Source of the DNA: Kappaphycus alvarezii
Lineage: Eukaryota > Rhodophyta > Florideophyceae > Gigartinales > Solieriaceae
Assembly: GCA_002205965.3 (NCBI GenBank)
Contig: NADL03000517.1
Coordinates: 1,116,001 to 1,180,000 of the forward strand
Direction of reading: 5' to 3'
Length of the DNA: 64,000 bases
Part shown: positions 6,401-56,501 of the stretch, piece after piece
Position numbering within the stretch: the first letter of the stretch is position 1
How the letters are laid out: the number at the start of each line of letters is the position of its first letter
Position numbers and translations under genes: made by a program
Notes under the pieces: model-generated
The model's input: only the letters and a program-made list of their open reading frames with translations
The model's database searches: none
Told to the model about the DNA's origin: nothing

Positions 6401-7649
6401 CTCCTGTGTAGGTCTGCTTGGGATAAGGAGGGATGGTATTCTCATGTCATGATGCGGCCTTGTGGTGAGCTCCAAAATCCATGGGTACGTTCATCCCAAA
6501 GTGTGGAGGAGAACGGTTGGAAATGATGAGACGGTAGGAATTGGTCCTGTGGTGATTCCATTGTCACTGTTACAGGATATTAAGGTGTTACCCGGTGATA
6601 TGTCGTTGCTTTCGGTTTCCGTCACGTGCGAGAGTGAATATACAAGGAAATCTATATTCGCTTCATCAGATTAGGCAATTATACGTCCAGCTCATTTCAC
6701 TTCGAGCAGTCTGGTGGAGTTGCGGCTATACATGGAAGAGCGTCCGATCGGTTCCCTATACGCACTTGTCCACGGGAAGCCCACTTTGCTACCCTCTCGA
6801 CAAAGGAGTAGTGGGGACCCGGCCCGCTACGAATTGCGGCTGTTGAATTGGAAGGACTCCAGTAACAATTGCCATTTCTCTACTCCATTCCAAGACTTTG
6901 GTGCTGATGGCGGCGTTGTGAAGATATACAAAGTCTGAAATTGCCGGCACATCTGTAATATGTTCATTGGAAGCATATCTGGGCTACATTACATAATAAC
7001 GACACTCCGTTATGGTTTCTCGGATCCGCAGTGGGCTCGGTAGCTACGGCATAGTGATTATGACTTTCTGCTTACGGCTTATCCAATGACTAAATCCGGT
7101 CTGAATACGGTGGCCCCGCAGGCTTGCCTTTCTACAGTTCAGCCGTACAATGTGAACCAACTGGTCCAACTCCTAAAACTATTGAATGACACAAAGCTGA
7201 AGTTGAGGAGTTTTATCGCGGGATTCAGGTCACGAGTGAATGAGTCTCAGTTGGGAGTTCTAGTAGCATGGACTTTCATGCGGCATATAATTTGCTGTTT
7301 TCCGGTGGATGTATTGAATTACTACCTCAACAATCGTGCGCAGTTAGGTCCCCAAAATCAAGGTTTAACAGTACGGTAATATTTTGTCAAGGCACTCCCA
7401 GTACTGGGAAGAGTCATTTCTCTAATCTTCTCATCAGTCTAACAGTTGAGAAGGTAATGGTTTCGGGTATAATACCCGAGTTTACGCAAGCAAAGCTACT
7501 AAAAGGACGCATGCTCATTCTCAGTGTTAGCAATGCGGCAAGGGATGACTTATTCTTGAAATACCTCCGGTGTATACGTTCAGACTTGAGCTCGTTGGTG
7601 AAATCAGTCCGCGTGGGAAAAAACTCAAATGAGGAAGAAGTCGCGACAC

Positions 7650-7685
7650 GCGAATTGTCAAAAATACGCGAATTGTCAAAAATAT
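7650..7685 (+). repeat. 18-bp tandem duplication inside the helicase pseudogene
   Basis: The unit ACGCGAATTGTCAAAAAT occurs twice head to tail. Being a multiple of three, it keeps the frame and gives the repeated peptide RELSKI-RELSKI. Confidence 0.8.
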
Positions 7686-7940
7686 GTACATCTAAAGAAG
7701 CCATATCGTTGTTTCCGCACCAAGGTCATACTACTTTCACACCGAAACCAATCAACATCTTGAACAAGTACTCCGTGATTTTCGGAACCATTGGTTCAGC
7801 CCTTGTGCAACAGTTTGATGATGTTCTACCTTTCGATACAGTCATTGTTGATGAAGCCGCGGTGAGAGATGAAACTGAAACAGCCACCTGTTTGTCCAGG
7901 GTACTGTCTTCGACGGGGGTTACCCGCTTTGGTACTTCAG

Positions 7941-7968
7941 TTGTATTTTTTGGGTTGTATTTTTTGGG
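7941..7968 (+). repeat. 14-bp tandem duplication that breaks the helicase frame
   Basis: TTGTATTTTTTGGG is present twice in a row (7941-7954 and 7955-7968). Because 14 is not a multiple of three, the duplication separates the Walker B frame from the frame that carries motif III GDPFQ. It falls exactly at the junction of the two frames. Confidence 0.85.
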
Positions 7969-8894
7969 GACCCATTTCAAAACGCCCCTTTCGTGGCGCA
8001 TTCCTTCAGGCAGTGGTTGCAACATCTACAGAAGCGTGGCCATTTTACAGAGAGAGGAATGAATAAAAAATATGCTACTGCCACAACATACGCAGCGCCT
8101 GAGTCCCGTGCTCACAATTCCGAAGGAGTTTTTGAACGTACAGACTTGTATCCAGTTACGTCCTTTTTCCTGAATGAACAAACGAGAAGTTCTGAGCCTA
8201 CTGGATCGCTAAAAAGTGAACTTTTTTACGGAGGGAGGGTTAAGAATGGTCGAAGACCAACAAACACAGCGTGTATACGCTGTGGTAACGCCAATCACCT
8301 TTATTTTCAGGGCGAGAAGTTTTGTGAAGTCAGCGTTATTGATACAACTGAGGCTTACGGGACGGCATTGGAAACACGTCACGACAACGCTGGTTACTCA
8401 AACAAGTATGAGGCAAAATTGATCGTATCCATGATTCATGATTGGGAGGCAAAGATTAGGACGGAAACCTTCGCAGTTCTGACACCGTACAAAAAGAAGG
8501 TGGAAGAATTTTGGACTTTCCCCGGCGGAAAAGTTTGCACAAGGCTGTTACTGTTATGACTTTTGACTCCTGTCAGGGGTCGCAGTTCGATGTTGTTTTA
8601 ATATCAATGGTCCAGTCTACAATCACATGTAGCTTTATGTACCCAAATCCTACCACCGGAATTGCAACAAACTTTCTCGACGACAAGGGCGCTTCCTGCG
8701 TCGCTCTATCTCGGGAGAGAGAGGTGTGCGTTATTACCGGAAAAATTGACACCTTTGGCAAGCATTCAAGCGTTTGGAAAAACATTCTCAACCGTATTAA
8801 GGAGAAAGTAATTTCAAATACCCGAAGCACAGTGTATTGGTCGATTCGTGATACTAGCAATGGGCAGCAGCTCAAAGATCCCAGACAAAGATAA

Positions 8895-39595: not shown

Positions 39596-40045
39596 GTGGC
39601 GGCAAAGTTACGGCCGTTCACCTTCCACTTTTTGCTGCTCTGTGTTATCTTGGGCATAGAGTCATTAAAAACCAACAACGCTCATCCCTTTGCCCCTCAA
39701 TCTTTGCGCCTTACCGCTGGAGAGCGTTTGCTTGCGCATGACTCACAATTGGAAGTCGCAGCTTTAGAGGGCGAGCCATTACAGACCATCAATGCAACGC
39801 GTGCAGGACAAACTACTGCTCACGATCTGCAAGCCGCACAGGTGGGTAATCAAAGTGTTACTGCGGCTGTTCGTAGGAGGGGGAGAGGGCGGGGGCGAGG
39901 GTGGCCGAGGGGAAGTGGACGAGGGAGGGGGAGATGTACGGCTCGGTCAAGACAGTCTTCCTCCCAACTGGATGCGAGCGGGGTGTGGGGTGTTAAGCGC
40001 ACACGCGCAGATCAAGGTAGAACTGTGGTTGAAACTTTTGGTTGA
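39596..40045 (+). CDS. Unrecognised frame with Arg-Gly-rich tail
   Basis: The 149-codon frame (GTG or internal start) begins with a hydrophobic stretch (FTFHFLLLCVILGIESL) that could be a signal sequence. It continues with Ala/Gln-rich sequence and ends in an RG-rich tail (RRRGRGRGRGWPRGSGRGRG) encoded by a strongly G-rich strand. A similar RG tract occurs in the N-terminal extension of the transposase at 55.8 kb, and a broken copy of that transposase begins 500 bases downstream here. So this may be the N-terminal part of that copy, separated by the 480-bp repeat. That link is inferred from composition and position, not from alignable sequence. The frame ends inside the repeat. Confidence 0.3.
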   Translation: MAAKLRPFTFHFLLLCVILGIESLKTNNAHPFAPQSLRLTAGERLLAHDSQLEVAALEGEPLQTINATRAGQTTAHDLQAAQVGNQSVTAAVRRRGRGRGRGWPRGSGRGRGRCTARSRQSSSQLDASGVWGVKRTRADQGRTVVETFG

Positions 40046-40579: not shown

Positions 40580-42379
40580 GTGCTAGGCTTAGTTCACCTC
40601 ATCAAACATTTTGGCGTACTGCACGACCGGGAGAGGTGATGAAATGAGCCTCTCTTGGCATGCACAGCGAGATCAAACACGTGAGCTTTCTCAATTTGAT
40701 ACTTGATCATTTGGAACATCCCAAAAATTTTTCTTCTGTCCCTTACACCTCCTTGCAGCCCTCGATGATGATCTGTTTGGCTCTCGTGCATCCGAGAACT
40801 GAGTGAAGACTCTGAGCACCAGGAAAGCGGATCGTGAAGGTCACCCCGCAGACTTCGTTTCAGATTCATTATTCCGAGTTGTATTCGCAACACGGTTTCG
40901 ACGAAGAGGCGAACCGCAAGTCGAATCAGTGCGAAAGATGTTTGGTGCGCTCTTGGACGGCAGGGGGGAGGAGTTTTTGAGCGGATGCGTCATGACCGCA
41001 GTTAGGGGCTTCGGGAAAGAATATTTTATGCAAGTTATGATGCAGTTTTGGTTGTGCTCAGTGTTTGTTATGCCAGATCACATACTACAGTGCCACCCGT
41101 TTGCGTCAAAAGTCTTTCTTAAACCCTTTACGCGGGGACAGGGAAGCTAGGGGGCCGACCGAATGCCCTGCGGAAGATGGCGAGGGAGTTCTTGACATTG
41201 TGGAAGAAGAGACGCCTACAGTGTGAGCTGCTCCGAATAATCCTGAAAATCGAGAAGCATCTGCTGCAGTTGTGTTGGAGGGAGGCGGAGGAGAGGAGAA
41301 TGGACGTCAATTATCTACAATTCGGGAAGATGTCAGAAGGGACTTTATTGCAGGGTAAGATCGCCGTAACGACTTGTTGTTGACAAATATTCGCATTTGG
41401 GGCCAGAGGCATTTTTTGCCACCAAGTAATTTCGGTCAACGGGTCGAAGAAGTGACAATTTTGCTGTAACGGCGGTTGCGGTGAGAAAAATGGTACTAAG
41501 AAATTTTGTCGCATACTAAGGTTCATGCAAAGTCTTCCCAACTCACTTCAGAGCAATATTATCACATTTTTTGATGTTCCGAAGCCTTTAGTCTCAATGC
41601 AGAACGTTCCGCTCAGTGGGCATAGTCACAATGATGCTAACATGCAATCAATGCGTCCCGCTGTTGAGTCCAGAATTGGAAGCAAATGTGACGTACTAAT
41701 GTTGGGGCAGCGATGCGCGGGTTGTTTCATCTTGAGAAAGTCTAGAGGGACTCCACAAATGGTGATCAGATCCTGTTGACATATCTGGAGGCTATTGAGC
41801 TTTTCAAGCTTCCAGAAATCAATGAATCTAAGACTATGTAGAATGGTTTGACGTGTTGCAGAAGGGCTTGTTCAGCACAGAGACTCAACTGAGGCAATGA
41901 TGAGAGGAATGGTCAATGATCCTGCAGTTTTCAAAGCGATCAATCGTATGGAAGTCGTCAAAGCGGTGTTTGATGTTGGAGTAGTAGCCGCGAAACATGC
42001 TCAGTATTTGACATATTCCCCAGACCCTGTAGCGCTACTAGACACTAGAACTTTCAAAGAATGGGCTCATAGTGTGAATAGAACTCCGGAGGGAAGCAAA
42101 TTTGTTCTTGCTTCCGTGGAAATCAGGACCTGTGTCGCGCAATCAAGCCTTGGACCAGCAGCTCAGTTGTCATCGCCAAATTTTCTAAGATGGAATATTG
42201 AGGACAGTACGTTTTCGCGATACGTTCCACGTCAGCACATGGGACATCTACTGTATCAGGCCATAGTTCTGCAATTCGAATTTGTGCTATACGTCGTTGC
42301 GGCAGAGTATGGTATTCTGTACACGCTACTAATTAAGTTCGCAAAGAAGAGGTTTCCGCTGCGAGTCCAAGCTAATTGA
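40580..42379 (+). pseudogene. Second, truncated copy of the DDE/YqaJ-nuclease transposase
   Basis: Across several frames this aligns with residues 40-585 of the frame at 52.6-55.5 kb. It reads SSNILAYCTTGRG, then LDDDLFGSRASEN with a TGA at 40800-40802 where the other copy has Gln, RKADREGHPAD, TAVRGFGK (expected catalytic Asp replaced by Val), CRILRFM, LGQRCAGCF, then the nuclease part from 41897: MMRGMVND (Glu replaced by Asp), YSPDP, VEIRT (catalytic Lys replaced by Arg), YVPRQH and the Q-motif region. It ends where the nuclease domain ends; the C-terminal zinc-finger part is absent. Both halves of the fusion are present in the same order as in the other copy. Clearly dead. Confidence 0.8.
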
Positions 42380-47277: not shown

Positions 47278-47346
47278 TACAGTACAGTACTGTACAGTAC
47301 AATATACTGTACAGTAGTAGTACAGTACTGTACAGTACTGTACAGT
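47278..47346. repeat. GTACAGTACT palindromic array
   Basis: About 70 bases consist almost entirely of alternating ACAGTACTGT and its offsets. The sequence is self-complementary over long stretches and can form a hairpin. It lies 485 bases downstream of the stop codon of the 758-codon frame. A larger scattered array lies on the other side of that gene. Confidence 0.85.
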
Positions 47347-47830: not shown

Positions 47831-50107
47831 TCACTTCCACATGATGGTGGCAACAGTACCAACCCCTCCTGAGTGCTCTTGACTTTCTTGACTCCTTCCC
47901 AGTACTGCCAGCTGTCCGTTCGTGATTACAACGTCCGCAATGCATACAAGTATGCCACAGGCTCGGACTAGTCTGAGCTCTGGGACTAGTCTGAGTTCAT
48001 TTTGCAGTAACGCAGTAAGAGATTTCTTCGTTAAAAAGTGACTGCGCCCGGCCAGGTAGGTGCGTTCATTACATTGGTCCCTTCCGGATATGAACGCACC
48101 AGGGTAGGTAGGTCCTCTAGAGTCACTCATAGACGACATTTCTTCTGCGATTGAGTTTTTTCGGAATAGCTTATCAAACACCACTGGAACCTGCACGTCG
48201 TTCGTAAAGACTGCAGTTTCGTCCACGACTGCTCCTCGTCTCGCCTCAATTGCGCAGTTAAAGCACCCCTCGAGGCAACCATATCCGTCGCAAACATAAA
48301 GCGCCATACATGTCGCCCACGCCTCTACGACGTTCTCTTCTTCGGCAGATGCAGAGTACAACGTCCCGCCCTCCTCGTCATATTCAGCATTAAGATATGT
48401 AATGTCCTTGCATAGGGACAGCACAACCTCAGATGTGCTGCCCATTCTTCGCAACACCGCCCGCTTCGGAACATTCCTGCCGTTCCTCTCCCTTTCGTCA
48501 CTTATGAGTAGGCTGAGGAACAAGCTTCGGTGCCTAATCTCAGTTTGTGGAGAGCTAACTCGGTAAGCTAATCCATCGTAGACCACCGCCAGTTCGTCTC
48601 CCTCCAAGATATGATTACAATGCGTACCGGTTGTACCGTGTTTTAGGAAATTCTTCAGGTACATAAAATATCCACGGGCCGCGGACAAAGTGTCCACCTT
48701 AACTGCGGTATTTCGTGCCTTATGTCCGAGGCAGTGGAAGACAAGTCTACAAACCTCATTTCCATCCGGTATCCCATAAGATTCAAGTCGCTCTTTGAGC
48801 TGAGTGAGGTCTGAAGGGCGCATGGCGTCGGCATTTGGCGGTGGGTGAATATATCCGAACCATTCTGGGGCCTCGTATTCCTCCCACACATTGACCGAAA
48901 CGGCGCAGCTGAGTCGGAAACGGTCCTTGCGACCCTTCCTTCTTACCATGTACAAGTCTTCGCCGATGATATCATTATCAGCTTTGACTGGCCTGTTGTG
49001 GGCGTCTGGAAGTACGTTAATCTTAGTCAGGGTCGACGTTTCGCCCTCGCGCACAGCCGTGAAAGTAGTACCCAATCTGTCCACGTGAACATACTTTTTG
49101 TAAAACCCTTGCTCATAGATGTCTGTTTTCATCATCATGCACAAAGTTCTTGTTGTGTAAAACTCGCAGCGTGAGACACGAAGACCTGGGATATCTAGAC
49201 CACCAGAATTAACGTCGTCAATACCGTCGGCGTCTTCCGGTCGCTTTGAGAACTTGACGCTTGAGAGGATAGCCTTCAAATCGTCGACATCCAAATCTTG
49301 TGAGTTTTCAAGGAACGCTTTCAATACAGTATCAATAGGGTAAACTTCTGTTGCTGTAACCTCGAATTGTGTTCCTTCATAAATGAGCGAAGCGACACCC
49401 TCCCTCTGCAATATAAACAAAACCCCGGCACCGTTGGAAATCAACGTTACTGTTGATATTGGTCCAAACATAGTAAGCCCCATCGCTTTGAGGCGCTCCG
49501 ATCTCAAATGGCACATCGTTGGCTCAGACGAGGAAACTATGCCAATAATTCCTTGGACATCTACAGCTGTTTGGAAGAGGCGCAATAGCGTGTGGTAGTC
49601 ACCCTCTGTAGTAGCCTGGAGCCGATCAGTCTCAGTAGGCGCAGTGCGAGCAGAAAGTTCACGAACCAAGGAAATTTGGGCGTCCACCGAACGAATTGAC
49701 GGGGGCTGGGAGTTGTTTGGGCTCACCGGACTTGCGGGGCTGCGAGGTTGTGGAGCAGGAAGCTGTGGTGGTAACGGAGAGGACACAGCGGACTCGGGGG
49801 CGGTAGGGGCTGCCGACGTTGTGCTGCGAGAATTTTTAGTGCTTGCCTTGGCTTCACGTTTGGTGAGGCGGACCCTTGTGGAGGAGTCAGATTGGGCCCC
49901 AGTGAGAAGTCGACGTACGGCACTCATTGCGGGGGAACAGTTTGAGTCTTGGCTGTTCAGGTCCGAAGGTGCGAAGGCGCGACGGCTGCGACGACGTATC
50001 GAAAGGTGCCCTTCAGTTCGCGAGCCGCTTCGAGTAGATGCTTTGGAGGGGGCTGAACCCATAGATAGCGCAAAGCGCAACCTAGATACCTTAGGTTTAA
50101 ACGACAC
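47831..50107 (-). CDS. Intact 758-residue protein of unknown family
   Basis: This is the longest uninterrupted frame of unknown function in the window. The first 150 residues are Ser/Arg/Pro/Ala-rich and look disordered (basic start, then APTAPESAVSSPLPPQLPAP). From about residue 150 the sequence is globular, with no transmembrane segment. Notable parts are an acidic block DLDVDDLKAIL, EWFGYIHPPP, a THCNHI motif and CDGYGCLEGCFNC at residues 606-618 (Cys at 606, 611, 615, 618), which may bind zinc. The repeat ELRLVPELRLV near residue 700 comes from an 18-bp tandem duplication. Other start codons exist at Met16 and about Met60; I kept the longest. GTACAGTACT arrays flank it, so it may be the cargo or transposase of an undescribed element, but no DDE, YR or RT motif is evident. 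Intactness among so many pseudogenes suggests recent function. Confidence 0.7.
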   Translation of the reverse strand: MSFKPKVSRLRFALSMGSAPSKASTRSGSRTEGHLSIRRRSRRAFAPSDLNSQDSNCSPAMSAVRRLLTGAQSDSSTRVRLTKREAKASTKNSRSTTSAAPTAPESAVSSPLPPQLPAPQPRSPASPVSPNNSQPPSIRSVDAQISLVRELSARTAPTETDRLQATTEGDYHTLLRLFQTAVDVQGIIGIVSSSEPTMCHLRSERLKAMGLTMFGPISTVTLISNGAGVLFILQREGVASLIYEGTQFEVTATEVYPIDTVLKAFLENSQDLDVDDLKAILSSVKFSKRPEDADGIDDVNSGGLDIPGLRVSRCEFYTTRTLCMMMKTDIYEQGFYKKYVHVDRLGTTFTAVREGETSTLTKINVLPDAHNRPVKADNDIIGEDLYMVRRKGRKDRFRLSCAVSVNVWEEYEAPEWFGYIHPPPNADAMRPSDLTQLKERLESYGIPDGNEVCRLVFHCLGHKARNTAVKVDTLSAARGYFMYLKNFLKHGTTGTHCNHILEGDELAVVYDGLAYRVSSPQTEIRHRSLFLSLLISDERERNGRNVPKRAVLRRMGSTSEVVLSLCKDITYLNAEYDEEGGTLYSASAEEENVVEAWATCMALYVCDGYGCLEGCFNCAIEARRGAVVDETAVFTNDVQVPVVFDKLFRKNSIAEEMSSMSDSRGPTYPGAFISGRDQCNERTYLAGRSHFLTKKSLTALLQNELRLVPELRLVRACGILVCIADVVITNGQLAVLGRSQESQEHSGGVGTVATIMWK

Positions 50108-50873: not shown

Positions 50874-51250
50874 TTACAGTACAGTAACGTGCAGTAAGTC
50901 TGCTGTACGCATAAAGAGATGTACAGAGCAATACTGTACAATGGCACTGTTTGTCCTCTGCCGTGTAAAGCTCGGTATCCCCGATACTTCCGTACCATAC
51001 GCAGTACTGTACAGTACAGTACTGTATAGTGCGGTAAATGCAACAGAAAAGGATTCTGACTAAATTGTACAGTACATGCAGGACTGCACTGGAATGCACG
51101 GTACAGTACACGTACTGTACTGTACTCCATAACTCGGTTCTTGTTTTGTGAATAGCCGTCAAGGCAGGCTGTCCTACGGCTAAATAGCCCTATGGCAAAA
51201 ATGAGATGTCTCTTCTGTACTGTACTGTACAGCACCGTAAAGTACAGTAT
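50874..51250. repeat. Clustered GTACAGTACT-type palindromes
   Basis: At least five clusters of ACTGTACAGTAC and its permutations (near 50876, 50930, 51003-51030, 51065-51125, 51216-51246) lie within 380 bases. They belong to the same family as the array at 47278-47346 on the other side of the 758-codon gene. Confidence 0.75.
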
Positions 51251-52298: not shown

Positions 52299-52302
52299 AT
52301 AT

Positions 52303-52339
52303 CCCTAATGCCATGATTTATTGATCTATATACTGATCA
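52303..52339. repeat. Left terminal inverted repeat
   Basis: Reads CCCTAATGC, CATGA, then TTTATTGATC and TATATACTGATCA. It pairs with the reverse complement of 56465-56497 with one 4-base length difference and a few mismatches. It includes a degenerate copy of the GATC...GATC palindrome (52323-52338). Confidence 0.85.
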
Positions 52340-52527
52340 GAGCATTCAGTAGTGCAGTAGTTCGCATCAAAGCAACGCTCGCTAGTATCGAGGACATGCG
52401 CGAATAGAAGGTGTTTTTCCACGTCTTCTCCCGAAGTTTCGCCTGAAATGATGCAGTAAAAACGACGCAGCAAGGTGCCGAAATTGAGTCGCCAGGCACC
52501 TTTCTGGAGGGGTGAAAAAGGCGTTTT

Positions 52528-52543
52528 GATCAGTATACTGATC
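52528..52543. promoter_or_regulatory. Left subterminal 16-bp palindrome
   Basis: GATCAGTATACTGATC is a perfect palindrome, identical to the site at 56412-56427 near the other end. Placement inside both ends suits a transposase binding site. It is listed as a site by inference; binding is not shown. Confidence 0.7.
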
Positions 52544-52620
52544 ACTGTATGTACGAGAAAGGGCGCTACAGGCATCCCAGGCGCTGTTGTGAAGCCACTC
52601 TACGGCACTCCGCTACATGT

Positions 52621-55600
52621 TTAATTTCGCCGCTGCCTCCGGCAAGGCCCTGTCGACGGGCTTTCAACACCGGAAGGTGGTGTTGACGCAAATTTTCTAT
52701 CCAGAAGACGCTTTGAAGCGGGTCTGGGAGTCGTAGAATTCTCCCGCTCAGCGGCGGGAGTACTCACCGGTGTCCTGTCTTCTTCATTTTGTCCCCCGGC
52801 TCCGTCATCCGCATCGGAGTCCGTCTGGCAAGCAGCGCTTCCCGTAAGGCGAGGCGTTTTTCGGAGCTTTAAGGCCTTTGTAGAATGCAACAGACTCCAG
52901 CAGCTTTTCCTTAGCCCTGGATACGTCCGGATGCACAGCTGAACGCTACAAACGGGACAAGAGTAGGTTGAGCGATGACCACGCCACTCACCTTTGTGTC
53001 GCCCGCATAAAACGCAGTGCAATACTGGACCTTGCTTTGGGGTGTGGCCGGGGACGACAAAACGGAGGTTAACGCCCTCTGCGCTGTTGAAGAACATGAT
53101 GCGCTTCCTACGTCGCGCTTTCGCTATCGCAATGAGCCTCTCTGCCTCCCTTCTCGGTATTCCTACTTGCTCTACAGCTTCGTTCTGTCCTTCTTGTATC
53201 GTTAAAGACTCAGCGTAGGAAAGAAGTTCCTTAGAGACATCATACATAAAATCTGCCGTTGCTTGAACCTTGCTCAATGCATTGCGGTAGTTGTCCAGGG
53301 ACTTGAACGTCTCTTTGGACTCCAAAAGGTCCTGCCTTTGAAACATCCGCCACGCGAAGAAGCCATTAATCGCGACCGTCTTGAGAACCTGTGAAACGAT
53401 CTTCTGTTCCCATTTAAAGTGGGATGTAGCACTGCGCAGTATAGCCCTTTGTTGTGTTGCACCGTCCACCCCTGCCTTTGTTTTAGAATAGAAGGATTGC
53501 GCAGCATGTTTAAAGAGCTTCAAGGGGAGGAAGGGTCTACTAGCTCTGACATGCCCGTTAATGATGCGCCAAAAGTTGAGACGTGATGTTACCGTAGCGT
53601 GCAGCGCTTTCGGTACAAAGGCAGGGATTGCACCATTTTCATCATGAGCCCACTCGATGAGTGGTGCAGCAAGGAACTTCACAGTCTCATAACAGAGCTG
53701 CTGCACGGAACCTGGACAGCGAATAACAACGATGTAGAGAATGCCGGTTTCGGCAGCGGCGACATAAACGGCATAGCTGAAACCCAACACCACGAGCTGA
53801 TGCATAATTTGAGCCGTGTGCTCTTTCGGGACGTATCTGCGAAACGTCGAGTCTCCTACTTCACATTCGATGGGTTCCGAAGTCGAAATTGCAATGCTTT
53901 GTCCGAGCGTTGACGCAGCAATACGCGTCTTAATCTCAACCGTAGCCAAGACAAGGGTATTATCAGACCCCGCGGTGTCTGCGTACGTAGCAGAGTTAAA
54001 GAGCGGCAGGGCAGCTTTCTTGAGGAGGGCTACGCCGTTCAGCGAGCAGGAGAGGTAAGGGGCCTCTCTGCGCCCCAAAAGCCCTGCCTCGAACACATCT
54101 TCCACGAAAGAAAGTCCACGCAAAGCAGACAATGCAGCGTATTCGTTGTCGGATCCGCGCATCATCGCCTCCGTAGACCGCTTGGAGGAAAACCATCCAT
54201 CAAATAAAGCCTTGAACCACTCTTCCATTGTCTTTTCTTGAGCAGGGCCGTCAATACCCAATGCAGACCGCGCCTCGTTGCTGCTTAGGAGCATCAAGCC
54301 AGCATTCGTGCCCGTAACTCTGAACTGGCGGAGGACGAACCAGTTCGCACATCTCTGGCCTATAGTCAGCGGTCTGCAGTTCGACGAAACTACATCTTCC
54401 AAAGTGTCCTTCAGTTCGACGACATGAGGCTCTTCGCTTGGTCTCCTCGTGTACAAAACCTTGTCGAAAGATACGTTCGCTTTGGGCACGGCTACCCATG
54501 TATTCAAGCTCTCCTGCACTGGGGTCGGCACAGTGTACATAAACCTGAGAACCTTCGCGAACTTCTCAGTCCCCTGCTCGCGAACCGCAACGGTGGTAGC
54601 TCTCTTCTGCCCGAGTATTGAGGCCGCAGATGACCCCACGGTTTTGGTCGCAAGAAACGCTTCCGGTGCAAGTTGCGGGGTGTCGTCAACAGGAAACCCT
54701 CGCGGCCGGTCCAACTGCAGCGTGGATACATGTACACCGTTCCCGACATCCCCTCCTTCCGCGCCATCTCCTGCCGTTTCCTTAGCGCCCAGCTCCTCCT
54801 CCTCATCAGCCCTGCTGGGGTTGAGGTAAGAAGACGCGACAAATGGATGCACACGCAGGAGGTGGTCGGGCATGATAAATACTGAGCTGAATCCAAACTC
54901 AGTGAGCAGCTCCATGAACGCCCTTTTGCCGTAACCCCTCTCCGCGGTGACTATGCAGGAGTTTGTTGCGCCCTCAGCACTACCCTCCGTAAGCACCTCA
55001 AATAAACGGCGAACAGACAGGAGCTGTGACTCTCCGCGGCGACGGAACCGGAGAGCCAGCACAATTCTGAAAAGAGCATCAGCTACGGCATCCGCAGAGT
55101 GGCCTTCCTTGTCTGCCTTTCTAGCGCTAAGCATCTTGACCTGATTGTCAGCGGCGCGCGTACCATAAAGATCGTCGTCCAACGTTGCGAGGAGGTGCAG
55201 AGGCACAAAGAACACCTTCTCGGTGTCCCTGAACGATAAATGCTCAAAGTCCCCCAACTGTTGCGTCTGGTCGCGTTGCGCATTCCACTCCATCTGGCCG
55301 TCTCGGCCACGCCCTGTGGTGGAGAAGGCCAAGATGTTGTCAGATATAAATCTGACCTTATCAACAGACGGCGGCGCACTCCCAGATTGGCGTAGAACAT
55401 CAACAGCTTTTCCAAAGCTGAAGCCGGTTGTGTGCGATAGAAGCAGAACCGCAACATAGCGATACATCTCAGACAGCCTAATGACTCCAATCTCATGTTA
55501 CCGTAGTCTGATAAGCTCGTTGAGCCACTCCGTAAGCTGAATGAGAACCCTGTTCATCAATAAAACGACAAACCCACTTCTGTTTGGTGCAACGTCCGGT

Positions 55601-56130
55601 ACCGCGCACTCGAGCTTCATCTTTTCGACCGCAGTATTGACAAGCAGCCGAGCGCGGTCATGTAAGACTTTGTCAGCAAAGACTTGTTCGAGCTTCACCG
55701 ACAGGCATTTCGAAGAGCTGAGATGCCATCCCTCACTAGGATCTCCCCTGGTACGATAAGCACGAGCAGAATCAGCCCCACGACCCCTACCACGACCTCT
55801 GCCACGCCCTCAACCTCTTGTAGATGCACCCCTTCCCCTCCCGCGTCCCCTTCTCACTTCGCGTCCGGGATCTGCTGTCGCTGTCCCCGTAGGCGTACCG
55901 TCGGCGGCCATGTCGATTCGCGCGCCACCGACAGAAGCGCTGCTGCCAGTGGGACCTTCTGATGGCCCAGCACGCCCGCGTCTTAGACCCGTGACTGGGT
56001 TCGGACCAGCTGCAGCCAGATTAGATGGCGCAGGAACCCGAGAGGGAACAGGAGCAACACCGAGATTGTCGTCCACAGTTGACGAGTCTCCAGCGGCGAA
56101 GGGCGCAGGAGCGTCAGTCACCGTCGCCAT
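52621..56130 (-). pseudogene. piggyBac-like DDE transposase with internal YqaJ-type nuclease domain
   Basis: From the ATG at 56130 one frame runs 1,170 codons to the TAA at 52621-52623. It is interrupted only by a TGA near 55808 (inside an Arg-Gly repeat) and a TAA at 55498-55500. The downstream 948 codons (55467-52621) are open; residue numbers refer to them. LDDDLYGTR (96-104) and TAERGYGK (174-181; an Asp expected at Glu176) resemble the first two acidic blocks of an RNase H-fold transposase. Residues 368-590 form a YqaJ/lambda-exonuclease-like PD-(D/E)XK nuclease: GQRCANWFVLRQFRVTGT, MMRGSDNE (Glu442), CSLNG (Asn477 where Asp is usual), VEIKT (Glu511, Lys513) and QIMHQ (Gln553, Gln557). 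The C-terminus has a piggyBac-type cysteine-rich domain: Cys818, 821, 837, 840, 845, 856 and His861. The N-terminal extension is Pro/Ala/Gly-rich with RG repeats. Confidence 0.75.
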
Positions 56131-56411
56131 GCTCGGGCGTTTGGGTATGGCGGAGGACGAGCGGAGGGTAAGGGGACGAACACGGACGCGGAGAAGCGCT
56201 CAACGGCGATCTGCGAAGGTGGGGCAAAGGGCGGAGGAGGCAGTGCGGACAAGCCGCCGTATCTTGGGAAGCAGTTGACGGATTTCAGTTCTTGAACATG
56301 CGGCGGGCAGCTGAGAGCGAGGCGATTCTTGTGGAGATTGCACCAATTAGATTAAAGCAATTTTTAAAGGCAAGAATTGTGGTCAAAGCACCTTTATTCT
56401 AAGCCTTTACT

Positions 56412-56427
56412 GATCAGTATACTGATC
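56412..56427. promoter_or_regulatory. Right subterminal 16-bp palindrome
   Basis: Identical to 52528-52543 (GATCAGTATACTGATC). It lies 38 bases inside the right terminal repeat, upstream of the transposase start, so it could also bear on its promoter. Confidence 0.7.
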
Positions 56428-56464
56428 CCTGGACGTGTAACAGCAAAAATCCAAAAATAGGTTA

Positions 56465-56497
56465 TGATCAGTATTTGGATCAATAAAAGCATTAGGG
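56465..56497. repeat. Right terminal inverted repeat
   Basis: Reverse complement reads CCCTAATGC, T, TTTATTGATC and CAAATACTGATCA, matching the left end. It contains a degenerate copy of the palindrome, GATCAGTATTTGGATC (56466-56481). The ATAT flank is at 56498-56501. Confidence 0.85.
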
Positions 56498-56501
56498 ATA
56501 T

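Follow-up and report, generated by a model that had tools for sequence, protein, structure and literature searches.

A 4195-bp transposon lies at 52303..56497 of the 64,000-nucleotide stretch of Kappaphycus alvarezii DNA analysed here (the window; positions 1,116,001 to 1,180,000 of contig NADL03000517.1, assembly GCA_002205965.3), and its gene, on the minus strand, is predicted to encode a piggyBac-like transposase with a YqaJ-type nuclease inside it. The element is bounded by inverted tips CCCTAATGC (52303..52311, plus strand; 56489..56497, minus strand) with a target-site copy of ATAT beyond each (52299..52302 and 56498..56501), limits which agree with the ends of sibling copies and with empty sites. 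Palindromes follow inside the tips: at the one end, an outer palindrome at bp 20-37 from the tip (52322..52339; 14 of 18 bases self-complementary) and an inner perfect 18-bp palindrome, TGATCAGTATACTGATCA, at bp 225-242 (52527..52544); at the other, an outer palindrome at bp 16-33 (56465..56482; 12/18) and an inner one at bp 70-87 (56411..56428; 16/18). When up to three mismatches were allowed, the TGATCAGTATACTGATCA palindrome had four matches in the window, all between the two tips (mean in the shuffled window: 0.00).

The main open reading frame (ORF) runs uninterrupted for 948 amino acids (aa) at 52621-55467 on the minus strand. The initial annotation had treated 52621-56130 as one gene frame, which proved to be broken by two in-frame stops, TAA at 55498-55500 and TGA at 55810-55812. 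The 103 codons between the stops (55501..55809, minus) matched the N-terminus of relatives by blastp (best E 2e-22), and therefore the gene originally started near 56130. Its beginning (55813..56130, minus), cut off by the TGA, is a low-complexity leader with an Arg-Gly-rich end, as in the leaders of the longer relatives.

Along the main ORF (all on the minus strand; conservation is counted over aligned rows with a letter at the position), the features are: i) the first catalytic Asp block, LDDDLYGTR (aa 96-104; 55156..55182), at the end of a beta-strand in the structure model; ii) the second block, TAERGYGK (aa 174-181; 54925..54948); iii) a beta-stranded segment (aa 258-328; 54484..54696), probably a piggyBac-type insertion domain, judging from model secondary structure and from its place in the order; iv) the lambda-exonuclease-fold nuclease (aa 362-634; 53566..54384), with RQFRVTGT (380-387), MMRGSDNE (435-442), the PD site CSLNGVAL (474-481; 54025..54048), the ExK motif VEIKT (510-514, EIK at 511-513; 53926..53940) and the HxxQxxxQ motif HTAQIMHQ (550-557; 53797..53820); v) the third catalytic Asp block, YSKTKAGVDG (aa 660-669; 53461..53490), which a profile alignment equates with D447 of piggyBac; and vi) a C-terminal Cys/His-rich, zinc-finger-like domain (zinc-ligand motifs at aa 818-861; 52885..53016). 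All motifs listed in the initial annotation were found at the residues given there. Its placing of the nuclease between TAERGYGK and the Cys-rich C-terminus had the order right but overlooked the third Asp. TAERGYGK itself was rightly placed as the second acidic block, but its catalytic Asp is here a Glu; likewise the YqaJ motif set, claimed as full, is mostly in place but its PD motif reads SLNG instead of the SPDG of relatives, the Asp having become Asn.

Both substitutions appear to belong to this copy. The Glu at the second triad position is the only one among 36 aligned rows, and since the window's siblings (best piece 92-97% identical) keep the second triad Asp in 10/10 and the PD Asp in 8/9, both losses seem private to it. 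Judged by its sequence, the window element is a dead, inactive copy. Moreover, its ORF had no Pfam match to the YqaJ or piggyBac family even at E 10, yielding weak zinc-finger-type matches alone (E 0.047 and, to zf-Tnp_2, E 0.058). Thus the claim of a transposase joined to a nuclease rests on the relatives and on structure.

Relatives were plentiful. A protein search with window residues 340-640 gave 24 homologues (best E 3.8e-88, far above chance), one with residues 30-240 of the family protein P0014 gave 35 matches including the query, and one with an alignment of 39 rows, the window ORF plus 38 relatives, gave 49. Named sources were the florideophytes Gracilariopsis chorda and Chondrus crispus, the closest named proteins being from G. 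chorda (P0042, 62% identity over 55% of the window ORF). As judged from these protein matches, the family is seen in florideophyte red algae and in the window's genome; within the limits of those scans, no relatives were found in viral contigs, in bacterial and archaeal contigs or in phages. A partial family member of 386 aa (P0047) is labelled Spongospora subterranea, which is not a red alga, and may reflect contamination or horizontal transfer.

Of the 39 aligned proteins, 29 covered, in one frame, more than 70% of each of three parts: the nuclease and the transposase stretches N-terminal and C-terminal to it. Separate genes misread as one are thereby ruled out, and the single polypeptide proposed at the outset, a piggyBac-like Asp-Asp-Glu (DDE) protein with a YqaJ-type nuclease, gained support from the relatives and from the structure model. 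The order of the motifs was identical and their spacing near-constant across metagenome and red algal proteins. Among the 38 relatives, P0029 lacked a nuclease motif and several others were fragments; 34 of the 35 proteins from the N-terminal search, which was used to look for nuclease-free sisters, carried at least one nuclease motif, the exception again being P0029, which may be a fragment (this search was word-based, and distant piggyBacs would escape it). Similarity of the nuclease between proteins ran parallel to that of the transposase parts (r 0.80 for the N-part and 0.65 for the C-part; 0/2000 permutations each), which points to long joint inheritance of nuclease and transposase. Three relatives (P0019, P0033 and P0034) seem to carry an extra terminal SCAND3-like zinc finger, below the Pfam cut-off (best 26.9 against 27 bits).

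The transposase of the family has a three-Asp (DDD) RNase H-like fold that matches piggyBac, with the triad Asp kept in 34/35, 35/36 and 34/34 rows. In P0004 the triad is D196, D275 and D760; the first two are 79 residues apart, against 78 in piggyBac by the residue numbers in PMC7351741, while the second and third are 485 apart (492 in the window copy) against 101 in piggyBac. In piggyBac, a three-stranded insertion domain (372-433) splits the catalytic domain with its triad D268, D346 and D447 (PMC7351741). In the P0004 model, a strand ends just ahead of each of the first two Asp, three strands follow at 369-409 and then the nuclease, and the segment of the third Asp aligned by profile to piggyBac 437-503. 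Because the third Asp lies C-terminal to the nuclease, the catalytic domain encloses the nuclease, whose position is thus more specific than a place ahead of the zinc finger; from the secondary structure of the model (the aligner gave ranges only), the nuclease probably sits after the insertion domain and before the third-Asp helix. Matches to the piggyBac family in Pfam (PF13843) at E <=0.05 came from 6/39 members (best 8.2e-7), the window ORF not among them. At the C-terminus, the Cys/His columns are conserved and zf-Tnp_2 matched weakly in 4/39 members; structural alignments stop short of this domain.

On the nuclease side, structure prediction for the region first suspected at about 368-590 gave a PD-(D/E)XK lambda-exonuclease fold over aa 362-634, and the top fold and profile matches of the family nuclease were lambda, YqaJ and RecE exonucleases. 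The R, E, D, E, K and Q that we take to be the canonical active-site set of YqaJ and lambda exonuclease are conserved: R in 36/38 rows, E in 36/37, the PD Asp in 35/37 (one of the two rows without it being the window copy), E and K of ExK in 36/37 each, and each Q in 35/36. Among 24 copies in fetched loci of the window's own genome, a part of the 75 family match rows there, the ExK pair was kept in 23/23 (E) and 22/23 (K), the PD Asp in 20/23 and the second triad Asp in 20/24. The Pfam YqaJ family (PF09588, cut-off 22 bits) was clearly matched by 4 of 16 relatives scanned singly, with one more at 22.0; at E <=0.05 it was matched by 27/39 members, the window ORF having no match, and phrog_434 matched 5/6 scanned proteins, again not the window ORF. 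YqaJ also exceeded the Pfam cut-off at four places in the genome, one of them in the fused family; the other three (C58:369316, C690:13350 and C488:653089) are outside the list of fused copies, and may be diverged members or free-standing nucleases.

Copies elsewhere in the genome (336 Mb in 884 contigs) defined the ends and the target. The 75 family match rows include copies that yielded several, and 11 copies, counting the window's, retain the gene-5' end at 94-100% identity. ATAT adjoins the tip at 10/11 of these ends and at 9/10 of the other ends (19/21 in all), while the outer flanks differ; the exceptions are the two ends of one copy (C697), both altered. Two copies, C585 and C767, both sit in a host repeat of one kind, with opposite orientations. 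When the two flanks of C585 were joined, they matched 40 further places, and in 30/30 that were fetched the junction held a single ATAT, as in an empty site. Past mobility of this subfamily, with ATAT as its target, is thus shown. The host repeat (L042-L071) is abundant (at least 40 places), carries the palindrome GTTGTCCTCATATGAGGACAAC and received the transposon at least twice. Among 13 diverged loci, two (L020 and L021) had ATAT-CCCTAATG tips on both sides, nine more had ATATCCC at least once in a flank, in some cases perhaps by chance, and the remaining two lacked it. Because ATAT is its own reverse complement, three forms of target-site duplication are inseparable by sequence: 4 bp of ATAT with a CCC tip, 2 bp of TA with TCCC, or none with ATCCC; piggyBac precedent favours the first.

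Ordinary piggyBacs are present in the same genome. The piggyBac Pfam family gave 119 match rows over the cut-off, many of which span the whole profile in ~1.15 kb and so leave no room for a nuclease; one locus (L072) encodes 647 aa with the Pfam match at 111-502. Thus nuclease-bearing and nuclease-free piggyBac-fold elements coexist. Six ordinary loci (L072-L077) have tips CCCCTCGTCTGTA, preceded by NTAT at 11/12 ends and by GAAT at one; TTAA stood beside the tips at 0/6. In the nuclease-bearing family, Ser occupies the position of piggyBac N440, a residue which contacts TTAA in piggyBac, in 34/34 rows, and the D450 position is A, T or S. A change of N440 to Ser might underlie the ATAT target, and we keep it only as a lead, one weakened because an ordinary piggyBac of this genome keeps Asn and yet all six loci lack TTAA.

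The likeness to the piggyBac superfamily (PF13843; Trichoplusia ni piggyBac 6x67, piggyBat 9c0f) extends over the DDD RNase H-like fold, the helical N-terminal part, the GGVD third Asp, the CCCT tips, a palindrome ~16-37 bp from the tip, the Cys-rich C-terminus and a palindromic tetranucleotide target. The CCC tips and subterminal palindrome typical of piggyBac were found as CCCTAATGC with palindromes at bp 16-33 and 20-37. Unlike piggyBac, the family has ~380-390 extra residues between the second and third Asp, which hold the nuclease, a Ser and an A, T or S at the N440 and D450 places, and ATAT instead of TTAA as target. TTAA is used by most, not all, piggyBacs (PMC10813416). Since neither target nor duplication is TTAA here, we call the family piggyBac-like, not a canonical member. 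With YqaJ, lambda exonuclease and RecE-type enzymes (PF09588, phrog_434) it shares the fold and the R, E, PD, ExK and Q positions; those are usually separate viral recombination proteins, whereas here the nuclease is a domain nested in a transposase. ISL2EU elements of the PHIS superfamily are likewise eukaryotic DNA transposons with YqaJ, but have it as a second, separate ORF beside a Harbinger-like transposase, and target A|AT|T (PMC4482050, PMC9179366). Membership in ISL2EU is ruled out by the piggyBac fold and by the same ORF serving both parts. TnsA is a PD-(D/E)XK enzyme. The TnsA-TnsB fusions of Tn7-like elements also join a nuclease and a DDE transposase in one chain (PMC11406308); they are bacterial with a TnsA-type endonuclease, whereas the family nuclease is nested and exonuclease-type, and the two are likened by analogy only. 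Teratorn-like fusions of piggyBac and herpesvirus in fish join piggyBac with viral genes, but as separate genes of a large element, not as a single protein (PMC5822658). The suspicion that this layout had no known description was borne out for the open-licence PMC papers searched (among them, besides the papers named here, PMC11707139, PMC13289751 and PMC7826175), in which no fusion of piggyBac and YqaJ was found; it may be described elsewhere, for example in Repbase.

We read the window element as a dead copy of a cut-and-paste transposon family, whose single piggyBac-fold DDD transposase carries a lambda-exonuclease/YqaJ nuclease within its RNase H-like domain (probability roughly 0.75). On prediction and homology, the architecture itself, a piggyBac-fold transposase with an inserted nuclease, is nearly certain. 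The two C-terminal domains of piggyBac bind to a palindrome lying within bp 17-33 (PMC7351741), and by this precedent the C-terminal zinc-finger domains would grip the palindromes ~16-37 bp from the tips. The DDD site would then cut at the CCC tips and insert into ATAT, the target shown by the empty sites, and the nuclease would act next on the 5'-ended strands that remain after the transposase has cut. Our first choice of substrate is the donor break, where resection would favour repair templated by a sister copy, through which the element would regain its old site. That the nuclease processes 5' ends in general is somewhat favoured; donor resection in particular is a tentative proposal; and the boldest version, in which an active viral-type 5'-3' exonuclease in the catalytic domain lets one enzyme excise and resect, with homology repair and gain of copies, together with a family-wide change from TTAA to ATAT, is rather unlikely. 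piggyBac is valued as scarless, and its hairpin formation is linked to the choice of TTAA. With another tetranucleotide as target and a nuclease next to its third catalytic Asp, this natural relative would make it possible to test by comparison both how targets are chosen and what becomes of the donor break; if the nuclease is active, the family would also give eukaryotes a counterpart of TnsAB and similar nuclease-transposase fusions.

Several observations weigh against this reading, beginning with the inactivity of the window copy. Plain Foldseek with P0004 found lambda exonuclease and no piggyBac chain among the first 50 rows, the window model reached piggyBat only at rank 38 (E 1.3), and hhalign of the family against four ordinary, near-identical piggyBacs found in this genome gave a weak match (probability 0.5, E 0.12), although the GGVD segment was aligned. 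Mean pairwise identity was lower in the nuclease (0.41) than in the flanking transposase parts (0.49 and 0.55), and of 19 short extra matches (P0039-P0057, <=524 aa) ten lacked a nuclease motif; we take these for fragments or broken frames. A selection test on the nuclease among sibling copies was without power, because most differences were confined to single copies and close to neutral, and the shared ones too few. An enzyme that degrades DNA 5'-3' could also destroy the ends of the element that encodes it. Lambda exonuclease, moreover, works as a trimer. piggyBac is a dimer (PMC7351741), and a trimeric nuclease need not be compatible with a dimeric transposase.

Other roles for the nuclease have to be set against end processing at the donor break. 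Like TnsA alongside TnsB, it might cleave the second (5') strand at each transposon end, which would make a hairpin unneeded for excision; the seat of the nuclease between the second and third Asp suits such a role, as does the TnsA-TnsB layout, in which the nuclease accompanies a DDE transposase or, in natural fusions, shares its chain (PMC11406308), but piggyBac already frees both strands through its hairpin (PMC7351741). The best fold and profile matches are moreover exonucleases of the lambda, YqaJ and RecE type, no separate comparison with TnsA having been made, and we consider second-strand cleavage unlikely. Less likely again, the nuclease would serve the new insertion site and not the donor break, by trimming a short 5' flap or overhang there, although lambda-type enzymes do degrade 5' ends. 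piggyBac leaves a 4-nt 5' overhang (PMC7351741), but because the ATAT target hardly varies, such an overhang would fit the gap, leaving nothing to trim.

We hold it equally improbable that the nuclease fold is a non-catalytic insertion which is structural or holds DNA. The insertion domain of DDE transposases occupies the same topological place (PMC7351741), the nuclease is the less conserved part and the window copy has lost its PD Asp; against this, each of the six canonical positions is conserved in 35-36 of 36-38 rows and in 20-23 of the 22-23 own-genome copies with data. As for an assembly or frameshift chimera, or a one-off nested insertion of YqaJ into an ordinary piggyBac, the window copy is indeed broken and both domains occur apart elsewhere, but the constant order and near-constant spacing in metagenome and red algal proteins, the 75 rows in the genome and the siblings at different sites leave it a negligible chance, and the family-wide fusion rules it out.

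A second copy of the family, diverged, decayed, frameshifted and without the C-terminal part, was found in the window by tblastn with family proteins (40593..42364, plus strand). Inverted tips were not recognised on it, and a GGGAG/CGAGGG-type stretch, resembling Arg-Gly-coding sequence, lies upstream near 39880. Elsewhere in the window, a 758-aa ORF at 47831-50107 (minus), with no Pfam match at E 0.1 and a weak PDB match (E 0.016), could be a genuine gene or belong to a further mobile element. Two overlapping ORFs at 7268-8559 match AAA_11 and AAA_12 and are apparently parts of a single helicase that is broken or interrupted by an intron. Short tandem repeats of the TACTGTACAG type lie at 51002-51030 and 47278-47346.
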